Of a DNA stretch of 64,000 nucleotides, positions 2,861 through 25,991 are shown piece after piece. The translations under genes and the position numbers were made by a program. Below the pieces are notes generated by a model. That model saw nothing but the letters and a program-made list of their open reading frames with translations. It searched no databases and was not told the origin of the DNA. Source of the DNA: Pedobacter sp. SYSU D00535 (GTDB lineage: Bacteria; Bacteroidota; Bacteroidia; Sphingobacteriales; Sphingobacteriaceae); contig NZ_JAFEWD010000015.1 of the NCBI RefSeq assembly GCF_017355855.1, positions 1 through 64,000 of the forward strand. The letters are read 5' to 3'. Within the stretch, counting starts at the first letter, position 1. Each line of letters begins with the position of its first letter.

Positions 2861-2868
2861 TACCTTTG
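2861..2868 (+). promoter_or_regulatory. Promoter -7 element for the small RNA at 2870
   Basis: TACCTTTG matches the Bacteroidota -7 consensus TAnnTTTG exactly. No good TTTG is present at the -33 position. It predicts a transcript start near 2873, immediately before the 5' palindrome of the candidate small RNA. Confidence 0.55.
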
Positions 2869-2869
2869 T

Positions 2870-2931
2870 TCCGTCACAATTGTGATAAGGTTTAGGTTAG
2901 CCCTGTCGACTCATTCGGCGGGGTTTTTTTT
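2870..2931 (+). ncRNA. Candidate small RNA, copy 1 of a two-member family
   Basis: A compact predicted transcript of about 60 nt with three parts. First comes a 12-nt palindrome TCACAATTGTGA (2874-2885), then a single-stranded linker containing TAAGGTTTAGGTT, then a 9-bp hairpin (2901-2909 / 2915-2923, with G-U pairs) and a run of eight T. A 21-nt stretch (2878-2898) is identical to 25928-25948. No plus-strand gene lies upstream (the neighbour runs the other way), so this is not the 3' end of an mRNA, and a perfect -7 promoter element sits just before it. The family is unknown to me. A base-pairing regulator using the GGTTTAGGTT segment is a guess. Confidence 0.55.
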
Positions 2932-21349: not shown

Positions 21350-22198
21350 CTATTGAAACACTTCCAGAGTATCAGAGTAAGAGGCCCAAACCATAAACGG
21401 ATGAGAATCTACCTTGAAAATTTCGCCTGTTGAAGAAATTCCTATTACACCTGCAAAGCCATCAAATTCTTTAAGCTCCTGCATCGACTTGTTACAGGCA
21501 TCTTCGAGAGAAAGACCATCGGTAACCCGTGTTACTATTTTTGCTGCAAGGGCTGCCCGGACAATATCCTCTCCCACCCCAGTACAGGATATCGCTGCAA
21601 AATCGTTAGCGTAATTTCCGGCTACCGTTGCCGAATCACTCACTCTACCCGGAAGTTCAAATCCTTTACCACCGGTAGAAGTAGCAGCGGCCAGTTTACC
21701 GTTCCTATCCAAAGCCACACAACCAACTGTACCTACACCCGCCGACTCCGCCAGTTTTTTTACATAGGCCTGTTTCCTGCTGGATGTTTCGGGATTGAAA
21801 TATGAAAAGCCGTGTTGTCTTGCAAAGGAAAGCGCCTCTGGCCCACTCAGTACAGAATCTTCAAAACTCATCAACTTCTCTGCTACGAACACTGGGTTTT
21901 TAACATCCTCGATATTAATAACCCCTGAAAATTTTTTCGATTCTCCGTCCATAATTGAAGCGCTCATGCGGATTTTCCCATCGCTCTGGATCTGGGAGCC
22001 GAGTCCCGCATTGAAAAGGTCACAGTCTTCCAACAAAGAAACAGCGTAGACAGCTGCGTCCATAGCCGAATGAGTTTTAAGGAATTCAAAAGCCTCCTTA
22101 ACAATGTTTGCGAGAGCATTTTGCTTTGCTACTTTTACTTCTTCCGAATCAGATGATTCGCTAAAGAATCCTCCATGAATGATGATCTTTTCCTGCAT
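21350..22198 (-). CDS. iaaA: Isoaspartyl peptidase/L-asparaginase (Ntn hydrolase)
   Basis: 282-residue plant-type asparaginase family member. The zymogen self-cleaves before the catalytic Thr157 in GVGTVGCVALD, giving alpha and beta subunits. HGG near the N-terminus, the AATSTGG motif and the beta-subunit GEDI segment support the assignment. Here its likely job is to hydrolyse beta-aspartyl-arginine dipeptides released by cyanophycinase, because its ATG overlaps the stop of the cphB gene by 1 nt (TAATG), implying translational coupling. It could also act on general isoaspartyl damage. Confidence 0.88.
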   Translation of the reverse strand: MQEKIIIHGGFFSESSDSEEVKVAKQNALANIVKEAFEFLKTHSAMDAAVYAVSLLEDCDLFNAGLGSQIQSDGKIRMSASIMDGESKKFSGVINIEDVKNPVFVAEKLMSFEDSVLSGPEALSFARQHGFSYFNPETSSRKQAYVKKLAESAGVGTVGCVALDRNGKLAAATSTGGKGFELPGRVSDSATVAGNYANDFAAISCTGVGEDIVRAALAAKIVTRVTDGLSLEDACNKSMQELKEFDGFAGVIGISSTGEIFKVDSHPFMVWASYSDTLEVFQ

Positions 22199-23106
22199 TA
22201 GTCGTAGTCTTTTACTTTCAGATACACGTCTTCTTGTACCTTTATGGCGTTATTAATCCTAAGTTCATGCTTGTGTAAATCGTATTTATCAAAAATTGAT
22301 AAAACATGCACTCGCAAATTATCTATAGATACCGGCGACCCCACATCTACATCATAAATATTCGTTTCGCTTATATATCGGCCATCAACTAAAATAGTAA
22401 GTCCCGACCCAATAGCTTCCAGGCAGAACCCTTCTGTGATTAGTAATCCCGCATCTTCGCCCAAACCCACGCCCAACATTCCCGGATTACTGGCAACGGC
22501 GTAGAAAAGCCGTCCAATTCGGCCTCGTTGGACAAAGTGCGTGTCAATGATTACGTCATCAATGAAACCGAGCCCCCCCGTAATTTGAACTTCACCCTTA
22601 ATTAAAGCCTCGCTACTACTGCCCCGATAGATCATGTTCACCGAAGCCGCCGCTGCTCCTGCAGAAGTGCCGGCTACTATAAAGTTCTCCTCTTCGTATC
22701 GCTTTTTTAATATCCTTAGAAATTCAGTGCCTCCAAAAATTGAGCTAAGTCTTAGTTGATCGCCGCCGGAAAACATCACTACATCGGCCTTTCTTGCTCT
22801 TTCCAAAGCTTCTTCAGTGTTTGCCTCTTCCCTTGTCCGGATATCGAGCACATGTACATTGTTCACCTGGAGTTGGTTGAACGATTTAATATATTCCACC
22901 CCCACTATTTCCGGGATTTTAGAAGCAGTGGTGATCACTTCCACAACAGAATTCTCCTTCTTTGATGATTCCGTTATTATTCTGCGAAGTATTCCCCTCT
23001 CAAAAAATTTTATATAATGAGGATGACTAATATTTTCGTTATAGCTCAATGAACTTCCCAGATCAACTGCACCACCTATAATTACCAGCTTCCCTTTTGG
23101 AATCAT
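22198..23106 (-). CDS. cphB: Cyanophycinase
   Basis: Peptidase S51 family enzyme that cuts the multi-L-arginyl-poly-aspartate polymer to beta-Asp-Arg dipeptides. The core has GGAVD, SGGDQLRL, the nucleophile Ser in AGTSAGA (about residue 148 from this start) and DTHFVQRGRIGRL with the catalytic-site His. I prefer the ATG at 23106 (begins IPKGKLVIIGG after Met), as in the family. A longer start at 23181 adds 25 residues. It is divergent from cphA and translationally coupled to the isoaspartyl peptidase gene. Confidence 0.9.
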   Translation of the reverse strand: MIPKGKLVIIGGAVDLGSSLSYNENISHPHYIKFFERGILRRIITESSKKENSVVEVITTASKIPEIVGVEYIKSFNQLQVNNVHVLDIRTREEANTEEALERARKADVVMFSGGDQLRLSSIFGGTEFLRILKKRYEEENFIVAGTSAGAAAASVNMIYRGSSSEALIKGEVQITGGLGFIDDVIIDTHFVQRGRIGRLFYAVASNPGMLGVGLGEDAGLLITEGFCLEAIGSGLTILVDGRYISETNIYDVDVGSPVSIDNLRVHVLSIFDKYDLHKHELRINNAIKVQEDVYLKVKDYD

Positions 23107-23229
23107 ATTATCGCGTATTACCTTTTTTATATATAATAATATATCAATTCTATGTCCAATAAGTTTTTCATCCCCGTCCAAAAAACTTTATAAAACCTGT
23201 CTGGTTATCTAATTCACTTAACGGATAGT

Positions 23230-25857
23230 ATGAAAATTCTAAATATTCAAGTGCTTCGTGGACCCAACATTTGGTCTATAAAAAAAACGAAGCTAATCCA
23301 GATGCGCCTGGATCTGGAGGAGTTGGAACACAGACCAAGTAATGAAATCCCAGGATTTAAGGAGCGCCTGGAAAAGTTGATCCCAAGCTTATACACACAC
23401 TACTGTTCCCCCGGATATGAAGGAGGCTTTTTCGAGCGGGTGGAAGAAGGCACCTGGATGGGCCATATTATAGAGCATATCGCCCTCGAAATCCAAACCC
23501 TTGCGGGGATGGATGTCGGGTTCGGAAGAACCAGGAGTACCAAGACAGAGGGTGTATACAACGTTGTCTTCTCTTATGTGGAAGAAAGTGTGGGAGAATT
23601 TGCGGCGCAGGCCGCTGTTAGGATTGCAGAAGCGCTGATAAACGGCCGAGAGTATAACCTGGAGGAAGATATCACGAAGATGCGTCAGATGCGCGATCAG
23701 GAACGCTTTGGGCCTACCACCGGGGCCATTGTTGATGAAGCTGTATCCAGAGATATTCCGTACATCCGCCTAAATAAGTCGTCGCTGGTACAGCTTGGCT
23801 TTGGGAAAAACCAGATCCGCTTCCAGGCCAGCCTAACCGATAAAACCAGCAGCATCGCGGTGGACATTGCTGGCGATAAAGAAGAAACTAAACGTATTCT
23901 GAAGGAGCAAGCAATTCCGGTTGCCGAGGGGACCACTGTATCGAGTGAGTCAGACTTGAAATCGGCAATTGCTGAAATCGGCTTTCCACTCGTTTTGAAG
24001 CCTTTGAACGGCAACCATGGTAAGGGTGCCTCTATAAATTTAAAAACGGAGGAGGAGGTGATTGCCGCCTTTGCACATGCGCAAAAATACTCAGAGGTAG
24101 TAATCGTCGAAAAATTCATCTCTGGCTACGACTTTAGGGTTTTAGTCATCGACAATAAGATGATCGCTGCAGCGCAGAGAGTACCTGCTCATGTGACAGG
24201 AGACGGTATACATAGTGTGCAACAGTTGATTGAGATCGAGAATGAAGATCCGCGAAGAGGCTATGGACATGAGAATGTGTTGACAGAAATAACGGTGGAT
24301 AGAGATACGCTTGATATCCTCCAAAAGATGGGATATACCCTGGAGACCGTTCCTTCGAAAGATGAAGTGGTTTATTTGAAATCTACTGCGAATTTAAGCA
24401 CAGGAGGAACATCAATAGACGTAACCGATATGGTTCACCCTCACAATGTTTTTGTGTGTGAGCGTATCGCTAAAGTAGTAGGTCTGGATATTTGCGGCAT
24501 CGACATTATGGCCCAAAATCTGCATCAACCCCTCGAAGAAACCGGTGGAGTTGTGCTTGAAGTGAATGCGGCCCCCGGTCTTCGAATGCACCTTGCACCA
24601 AGTGAAGGAAAACCGAGGAATGTGGCAGCACCTATCATCGACATGCTGTTTCCTCCCGGAAAAAACGCCCGCATCCCAATTATCGCTATAACCGGCACTA
24701 ATGGAAAAACCACTACTACCCGTCTCATATCTCACATCATTAAAAATAACGGCTACCGTGTAGGATATACCACATCCGACGGCATCTACATCCAGAACTC
24801 GATGATGCTGAAGGGAGATACTACCGGGCCTGCCAGCGCAGAGTTTGTGTTGAAAGATCCGACCGTAGAATTTGCAATTCTGGAGTGCGCAAGGGGAGGG
24901 ATCTTAAGAGCCGGGCTAGGCTTTAATCGTTGCGACATTGCGGTTCTTACTAATATTCAGGAAGACCATTTAGGCATAGCGGACATTCACAACCTTGATG
25001 ACTTAACCCGGGTTAAGCAAGTCGTTGTTGAGTCGGTAAAGCAGGATGGATGGGCAGTTTTAAATGCAGACAATGAATACTGTGTAAGGGTTGGCGAAGA
25101 AACCACGCATTGTAATGTGGCTTACTTCAGCATGAACGAAAATAATCCCGTGGTAGAAAAGCATTGCCGTGAAGGCGGGGTTGCTGCAATCTGCGAAAAT
25201 GGATTCCTTACTATAAAAAAAGGTGAATGGAAGATACGGGTCGCTAAAATAACCCATATTCCCATTACCTTCAACGGTACCGTCACTTTCATGACTCAGA
25301 ACGCTATGGCAGCGAGTCTGGCGACTTTCCTTTGGGGATTCAAGATTGAAGATATCCGCACAGCGCTTGAGACATTTGTACCCTCGGCAGCGCATACGCC
25401 AGGTAGGATGAACGTGTTTGACTTCCGGGAGTTTAAAATCTTGGTTGACTATGCTCATAATCCTGACGGCTTGCGTGGAATCCAGTCCTTTTTACAACAT
25501 TCGGATGCTACCTACCATACCGGTGTCATATCCGGAACGGGCGATCGCCGGGATGACGACATCCGGGAAATTGGGCGACTGTCGGCTCAGATGTTTAACG
25601 ATATTGTAATATGCCAGGAGAAATACTTCCGGGGACGCACCTATGAAGACATGATTCGTTTATTATCCGAGGGTGTTCGGGAGATAAAACCAGAGCTGGA
25701 CATAAAAATAATTCCGAACAGTGAGGAGGCTTGGAAATATATTATTGGAAAAGTCCGCCCGGGAGAGCTTATCACCATCATTAGTGACTCGATTGCAGAC
25801 GCGTACAACACTGTTAAACGCTACCAGGATAGTGAACTTATTGCAGATAAAGTTTAA
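23230..25857 (+). CDS. cphA: Cyanophycin synthetase
   Basis: 875-residue enzyme polymerising aspartate and arginine into cyanophycin with ATP. It has an N-terminal domain (about 1-215), an ATP-grasp domain adding Asp (about 216-485, with LKPLNGNHGKG and EVNAAPGLRMH), and a Mur-ligase-like domain adding Arg, with P-loop GTNGKTTT (489-496) and DYAHNPDG. All three modules are complete and the length is typical. It is head to head with cphB, so synthesis and degradation are probably controlled from one intergenic region. Cyanophycin stores nitrogen; it is best known from cyanobacteria but occurs in scattered heterotrophs. Confidence 0.95.
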   Translation: MKILNIQVLRGPNIWSIKKTKLIQMRLDLEELEHRPSNEIPGFKERLEKLIPSLYTHYCSPGYEGGFFERVEEGTWMGHIIEHIALEIQTLAGMDVGFGRTRSTKTEGVYNVVFSYVEESVGEFAAQAAVRIAEALINGREYNLEEDITKMRQMRDQERFGPTTGAIVDEAVSRDIPYIRLNKSSLVQLGFGKNQIRFQASLTDKTSSIAVDIAGDKEETKRILKEQAIPVAEGTTVSSESDLKSAIAEIGFPLVLKPLNGNHGKGASINLKTEEEVIAAFAHAQKYSEVVIVEKFISGYDFRVLVIDNKMIAAAQRVPAHVTGDGIHSVQQLIEIENEDPRRGYGHENVLTEITVDRDTLDILQKMGYTLETVPSKDEVVYLKSTANLSTGGTSIDVTDMVHPHNVFVCERIAKVVGLDICGIDIMAQNLHQPLEETGGVVLEVNAAPGLRMHLAPSEGKPRNVAAPIIDMLFPPGKNARIPIIAITGTNGKTTTTRLISHIIKNNGYRVGYTTSDGIYIQNSMMLKGDTTGPASAEFVLKDPTVEFAILECARGGILRAGLGFNRCDIAVLTNIQEDHLGIADIHNLDDLTRVKQVVVESVKQDGWAVLNADNEYCVRVGEETTHCNVAYFSMNENNPVVEKHCREGGVAAICENGFLTIKKGEWKIRVAKITHIPITFNGTVTFMTQNAMAASLATFLWGFKIEDIRTALETFVPSAAHTPGRMNVFDFREFKILVDYAHNPDGLRGIQSFLQHSDATYHTGVISGTGDRRDDDIREIGRLSAQMFNDIVICQEKYFRGRTYEDMIRLLSEGVREIKPELDIKIIPNSEEAWKYIIGKVRPGELITIISDSIADAYNTVKRYQDSELIADKV

Positions 25858-25904
25858 GAAAATTTAATATTCACAAAACATTTGGCAAGTAGTGCCGTTT
25901 CTAT

Positions 25905-25985
25905 TTATAACCAGCGAGAGTTGGTTTAATTGTGATAAGGTTTAGGTTGAAGCGTCCCGGCAATGTTCGGGACGCTTTATTTTTT
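25905..25985 (+). ncRNA. Candidate small RNA, copy 2; also the likely 3' end of cphA
   Basis: It has the same architecture as the candidate at 2870-2931: a 5' stem (AACCA / TGGTT around 25909-25926), the identical 21-nt core (25928-25948) containing GTGATAAGGTTTAGGTT, and a strong terminator with a 10-bp stem AAGCGTCCCG / CGGGACGCTT (25950-25977) and T-run. No perfect -7 element is seen upstream. This copy may be released from the 3' UTR of cphA, whose stop is 50 nt upstream, rather than have its own promoter. Boundaries are approximate. Confidence 0.5.
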
Positions 25986-25991
25986 ATACAT

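Follow-up and report, generated by a model that had tools for sequence, protein, structure and literature searches.

The window examined here (the whole 64-kb stretch of DNA that was analysed) contains two copies of a short element that share 21 identical nucleotides, at 2878-2898 and 25928-25948; a preliminary description of this DNA had claimed this identity, and re-reading both stretches shows that it is exact. The 17-mer GTGATAAGGTTTAGGTT occurs at two exact places in the window and at no others with up to 3 mismatches, while shuffled versions averaged 0.21 such matches and gave two or more, mismatched ones counted, in 2 of 100 shuffles. Copy 1 has no plus-strand gene upstream, the gene on that side (145-2514) being on the minus strand, and it carries the -7 element that had been noted there. 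Copy 2 lies between cphA, which has a match to Pfam Cyanophycin_syn and ends so that the repeat starts 70 nt past it, and a small minus-strand ORF. Both cores run with no gap into a terminator-like hairpin with a T-run, placed by the terminator scan at 2899-2925 and 25948-25979, and the two stems are unrelated, the latter as described. The short 5' stem reported ahead of both copies is present at copy 2, whereas that of copy 1 extends into the start of the core. The features are as follows:

2861-2868, plus strand: copy 1 -7 promoter element TACCTTTG, of the TAnnTTTG type (sequence; family-wide motif assignment)
2874-2885, plus strand: copy 1 5' palindrome TCACAATTGTGA, a short stem using the first core bases (sequence; partly paired in the 2870-2935 fold)
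2880-2898, plus strand: copy 1 invariant 19-nt core, the proposed seed (shared with copy 2 from 2878 on)
2899-2931, plus strand: copy 1 intrinsic terminator, a hairpin with apical pentaloop CTCAT and a T-run (terminator scan, fold)
23230-25857, plus strand: cyanophycin synthetase-like gene, cphA, which precedes copy 2 (Pfam)
25875-25879, plus strand: copy 2 ECF-like -35 element AAAAC (family-wide motif scan)
25896-25899, plus strand: copy 2 ECF-like -10 element CGTT (family-wide motif scan)
25909-25926, plus strand: copy 2 5' hairpin AACCAGC-GAGA-GTTGGTT (fold, 5' hairpin survey)
25930-25948, plus strand: copy 2 invariant 19-nt core (shared with copy 1 from 25928 on)
25949-25986, plus strand: copy 2 intrinsic terminator, a hairpin with a T-run (terminator scan, fold)

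A covariance model of the element, R1, matches the window at 2878-2931 and 25928-25984. Whole-RNA folds were predicted for these two copies. In the 66-nt fold of copy 1 (2870-2935), two segments of the core, GTGAT and GG, are paired to the 5' end and the remaining core is free, while a longer predicted fold pairs more of the core with upstream sequence; the core of copy 2 is unpaired in an 81-nt fold and partly paired with upstream sequence in a 133-nt fold. No sigma-70-type promoter was called at copy 1 by the scan rule, which covers no other promoter types. A cyanophycinase gene (22198-23181) and the cyanophycin synthetase-like gene are divergent and adjoin copy 2.

The element had been described as a two-copy family, which is correct for the window and an undercount for the genome, where the 19-nt core TTGTGATAAGGTTTAGGTT has 15 exact matches and two further places with two mismatches. 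Two of the exact loci (L005 and L009) are identical across all 3019 bases compared, leaving 14 distinct copies, and five of the genome's copies form a tandem array with spacings of 160, 157, 158 and 157. Apart from one large duplicated region and this array, homology between the paralogues of the window's genome ends at about -22 to +70 from the start of the core. The core is therefore not part of a longer mobile repeat in this genome, the possibility against which the preliminary description had wished it checked. Contigs C11 and C12 of the same genome contain regions, at about 10-91 kb and about 692-766 kb respectively, that look mutually duplicated, judging from the identical 3-kb pair L005/L009 and from SusC scores that are equal in pairs (L212/L213 and L220/L221); this may be either a real duplication or an assembly artefact.

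Further copies, sought as a check on the initial proposal, are present across the sampled genomes of the bacterial family. The core with at most one mismatch was found in 55 of 151 family genomes (a reversed-pattern control gave one match in each of two of the 151), and model R1 matches 80 of the 151 at E<=0.01, with 0-20 copies per genome and the maximum of 20 in G002. Among the matches listed, those with names are mostly from Mucilaginibacter, followed by Desertivirga, Hufsiella, Daejeonella, Olivibacter and others. A sister variant, with core TTATGATACGGTTTAGGT between a 5' hairpin and a terminator, occurs in 13 examined genomes of genera g4 and g24, usually as a single copy per genome in which the core is kept with few changes; three of these 13 have an additional, weaker second match. 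Two loci from g24 (L310 in G139 and L311 in G103) carry a second weak variant, TTTGTGATAGGTTTAGGTTGATTACC or near it, perhaps a further sub-family. A wider class extending beyond the bacterial family was considered and rejected: of 26 genomes matching the model at E<=0.01, 20 lie outside, with one or two weak matches each, and none of 16 such loci examined has the core, several having AGGTT ahead of the hairpin. The core and hairpin are also found on metagenome-assembled contigs labelled Methylococcaceae, Nomurabacteria and Chitinophagaceae (L081, L158 and L094), which are likely cases of misbinning or transfer. Rfam 15 gave no match at a family's gathering score in the window, and in seven loci only a tRNA, lying away from the copies, reached that level; the sole weak match over a copy was the rimP leader on copy 2 (E 0.39, below threshold). 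Searches of an open-access library gave no description of the family, the contents of structured-RNA candidate surveys (e.g., PMC8040213, PMC2864571) lying outside their scope.

The anatomy seen in the window recurs throughout. A strong hairpin starts 0-3 nt past the core in 173 of 178 distinct exact-core copies (150 meeting every criterion plus 23 with a hairpin at offset 0 that fail the T-count rule), and in 149 of these it starts immediately. Among copies meeting every criterion, 98 of 150 have GCRAG/T as their apical loop and 20 have CTCAT or CCCAT, compared with GCGAG in 2 and CCCAT in 3 of 258 other nearby terminators. The original claim that the core is conserved while the flanking helices differ can be put more sharply: stem sequences change and pairing is kept. 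All 14 stem pairs are changed on both sides, with a covariation of 0.619 against 0.214 after shuffling, in a set (A2) of 38 ungapped rows chosen partly by pairing and having the exact core by selection. This subset replaced a MAFFT alignment (A1) of mixed stems, which gave no consensus structure. Ahead of the core, 130 of 178 copies have a 5' hairpin, compared with 55 of 700 control places, and on inspection several copies of the window's genus have, instead of this hairpin, TCACAA facing the core's own TTGTGA. AGGTT was rejected as a general pre-terminator element, being upstream of only 5 of 165 other terminators (AAGGTT, 0 of 165), and a peptide-coding role was set aside on inspection alone. 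Five exact cores have no hairpin (L096, L090, L127, L134 and L147). Two of these, L134 and L147, share one contig.

Promoter motifs point to several kinds of transcriptional input. A sigma-54 motif, called with what we take to be its consensus (TGGYA-N6-TTG), lies 35-38 nt ahead of the core in 30 of 178 copies, where about 0.06 would be expected as calculated from the background rate; the presumed ECF-type consensus AAC-N15-17-[CG]GTT is matched 24-45 nt ahead of the core in 27 copies, and TAnnTTTG occurs within 40 nt upstream in 42, leaving 79 of the 178 with no assigned motif. A sigma-54 gene (PF04552) is present in all six genomes tested. Thirty-six copies, grouped by BLAST, follow a gene for a small membrane protein, and 28 of these 36 have the sigma-54 motif. 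In all ten such loci examined by eye, an ECF sigma-like protein is encoded ahead of the membrane protein gene, and one of these was confirmed as sigma70-ECF. The membrane protein may be an anti-sigma factor; the one example tested had no Pfam match. A cphA-related gene is upstream of 8 of 178 copies, and 7 of the 8, including copy 2 of the window, have the ECF-like motif.

Perfect 10-nt complements to the core occur between -30 and +5 in 14 of 1977 start windows, compared with 2.27 +/- 1.89 for shuffled seeds, and none of 200 shuffled seeds reached 14; reversed and sense-orientation control seeds each gave 0 in the same windows. These windows comprise three sets from RNA-bearing genomes, one of them from loci chosen for nearness to the RNA, and the first ATG of an ORF counted as its start codon, no annotation being used. 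The excess is weaker for 9-mers (21 versus 8.87, reached by 4 of 200 shuffles) and absent for 8-mers (32 of 200 shuffles as high) in the 1977 windows. Taken alone, the window's genome has 3 ten-mer matches (5 of 200 shuffles reach that) and no 9-mer enrichment (95 of 200 as high), and G118 has 5 ten-mer matches (0 of 200). An RNA-free genome, G038, has 1 in 308 windows, too few to differ clearly from 14 in 1977.

The best individual sites are a 14-nt complement in G118, located at -19 of a gene at C1:671712-672816 that is similar to the heavy-metal-binding family PRK01119, and a 17/19 complement in the window's genome 3 nt ahead of an HtpX/M48-like gene at C11:201458-203573, both names being NCBIfam matches below the curated cut-off. 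The latter site is only partly conserved, the single congener orthologue retaining just TTATCACA. Two of the hairpinless exact cores are themselves antisense to leaders, L096 lying 14 nt ahead of an ATG and L090 at about -97 to -78 of a 321-aa gene with a second partial site at -20; beside L127, L134 and L147 no gene start was found on the antisense side. By eye, the predicted targets fall into no coherent functional class, and two of the 14 ten-mer target genes are orthologues (L141 and L175). SusC was rejected as a common target, as pairing was not in excess at the 28 genes tested out of the 40 above the cut-off in the window's genome (rank 119 of 200). The proposed seed role of the core gains support from the antisense excess at start codons.

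What, then, do these copies do? The family, its anatomy, the stem covariation, the promoter motifs with their set spacing from the core, and the antisense excess are products of computation. The reading first offered, an unrecognised sRNA family with a functional core, draws support from the further copies, the position before the hairpin, the stem changes and the antisense excess. In our judgement it is close to certain that the copies constitute an RNA gene family and likely, on statistical grounds, that the family acts as pairing sRNAs. In gene structure the copies match sibling sRNAs: they are short paralogous RNA genes that have one core in common and a terminator each. We assign a probability of about 0.72 to the reading that they are sibling trans-acting sRNAs of Sphingobacteriaceae whose core binds translation-initiation regions. 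Each gene would be a self-contained unit of promoter, usually a variable 5' hairpin, invariant 19-21-nt core and terminator hairpin, often with one of the few recurring apical loops, giving a predicted RNA of about 55-90 nt. The core would serve as the seed, pairing with mRNAs mostly 8-30 nt ahead of the start codon and probably blocking ribosome entry. Promoters appear to differ by copy (ECF-type, sigma-54 or housekeeping TAnnTTTG), so that the same seed would be released by different signals. We infer transcription and pairing, and likewise the direction of regulation and any helper protein; no Hfq match was found in the six genomes searched, and the window's genome has three RRM_1 matches.

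Those RRM matches would fit another role for the core, mainly as an RNA-binding-protein site, with the copies acting as sponges or stabilised 3' ends and mRNA pairing being minor. The recurrence of a few apical pentaloops fits such a site, as does the binding of RbpB to the conserved single-stranded part of FopS in Bacteroides thetaiotaomicron, described in PMC11697453. The antisense excess at start codons is not predicted by this explanation, which we consider unlikely. Protein sites, moreover, seldom require 19 exact positions.

Perhaps the core and terminator, as a 3'-UTR or attenuator element, simply end mRNAs and work in cis. In 112 of 178 copies (overlapping-ORF cases excluded) the nearest upstream gene is on the same strand, and copies are conserved downstream of the ECF operon and cphA. 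Considering, however, that promoter motifs sit between the upstream gene and the core at set distances (though none is assigned in 79 copies), that 40 copies lie behind an opposite-strand gene, and that the core is no general terminator feature, given the rarity of AGGTT and AAGGTT upstream of other terminators, this arrangement seems improbable. Least credible is a spreading MITE- or REP-like repeat without regulatory function, which would account for the widely varying copy number among genomes and for phage-borne copies. It is difficult to reconcile with paralogue homology that ends so close to the core outside the duplication and the array, with stems that diverge compensatorily while the core persists (exact by selection in that set), and with a core that is little changed in two other genera, where the copies are usually single.

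Phage-borne copies are present too, with the core on 19 viral contigs. Among five proteins adjoining viral copies that were tested, three matched head maturation protease (not as best match), DNA polymerase and the exonuclease VIII family, and the other two matched only families of unknown function. On viral contig L194 (55-628), the RNA adjoins a cluster of five tRNAs (Tyr, Ser, Ser, Leu, Leu). At L193, L197 and L200, tRNA-like ends seem to precede the core, though ARAGORN called no tRNA there. In phage and plasmid collections no match covered 80% of the query, and a single Mucilaginibacter plasmid record matches partially. A bolder extension of the sibling-sRNA reading, which we regard as rather doubtful, makes the one invariant seed the shared output of several stress inputs, with phage copies subjecting the host to this translational control as well. 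Each promoter type (ECF, sigma-54 or housekeeping) would drive its own copies, and mRNAs with rare 19-21-nt perfect leader complements (L096 and L090) would have evolved full responsiveness.

Among known systems, the enterobacterial sigma-E-dependent sRNAs MicA and RybB link an ECF sigma factor to sRNAs that pair at start codons. They resemble the present family in that link but are not known to be multicopy with an invariant 19-nt core. LhrC1-7 and other sibling sRNAs are cases of several paralogous sRNAs in one genome; LhrC1-7, likened here by description, is similar in this respect and differs in phylum. LhrC1-7 of Listeria monocytogenes is named among sibling sRNAs in PMC11697453, which also describes FopS, a family of paralogous sRNAs associated with RbpB in B. 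thetaiotaomicron. As described there, FopS has 12-15 copies per genome of about 65-70 nt, each with an intrinsic terminator after a conserved unpaired region; its paralogues lie at several loci, the sequence also occurs in a phage, the seed pairs near start codons with SusC start regions as targets, and the family has been deposited in Rfam (PMC11697453). No FopS entry appeared among the Rfam matches of the window or the seven loci. The likeness to FopS as presented there is one of form: both are multicopy Bacteroidota families with a conserved core before an intrinsic terminator, phage occurrence and RRM proteins present (PMC11697453), and pairing near start codons is in our case predicted. 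Sequence homology was not significant, the FopS consensus GTGTTTTTCATAGTATTAGATTTAAGGTTAACAAA sharing a 7-nt match with the core that 467 of 2000 shuffles equal. Unlike FopS as characterised there, the present family has recurring pentaloops, a tandem array, sigma-54 and ECF-like motifs and usually an additional 5' hairpin, with no SusC enrichment.

If real, the family would give Mucilaginibacter and Desertivirga a large multicopy sRNA system, and would suggest that FopS-like networks arose repeatedly, or spread widely, in Bacteroidota without Hfq. With many natural copies of one seed under different promoters, it would offer a ready system for asking why bacteria keep redundant sRNAs, and also why phages carry them.
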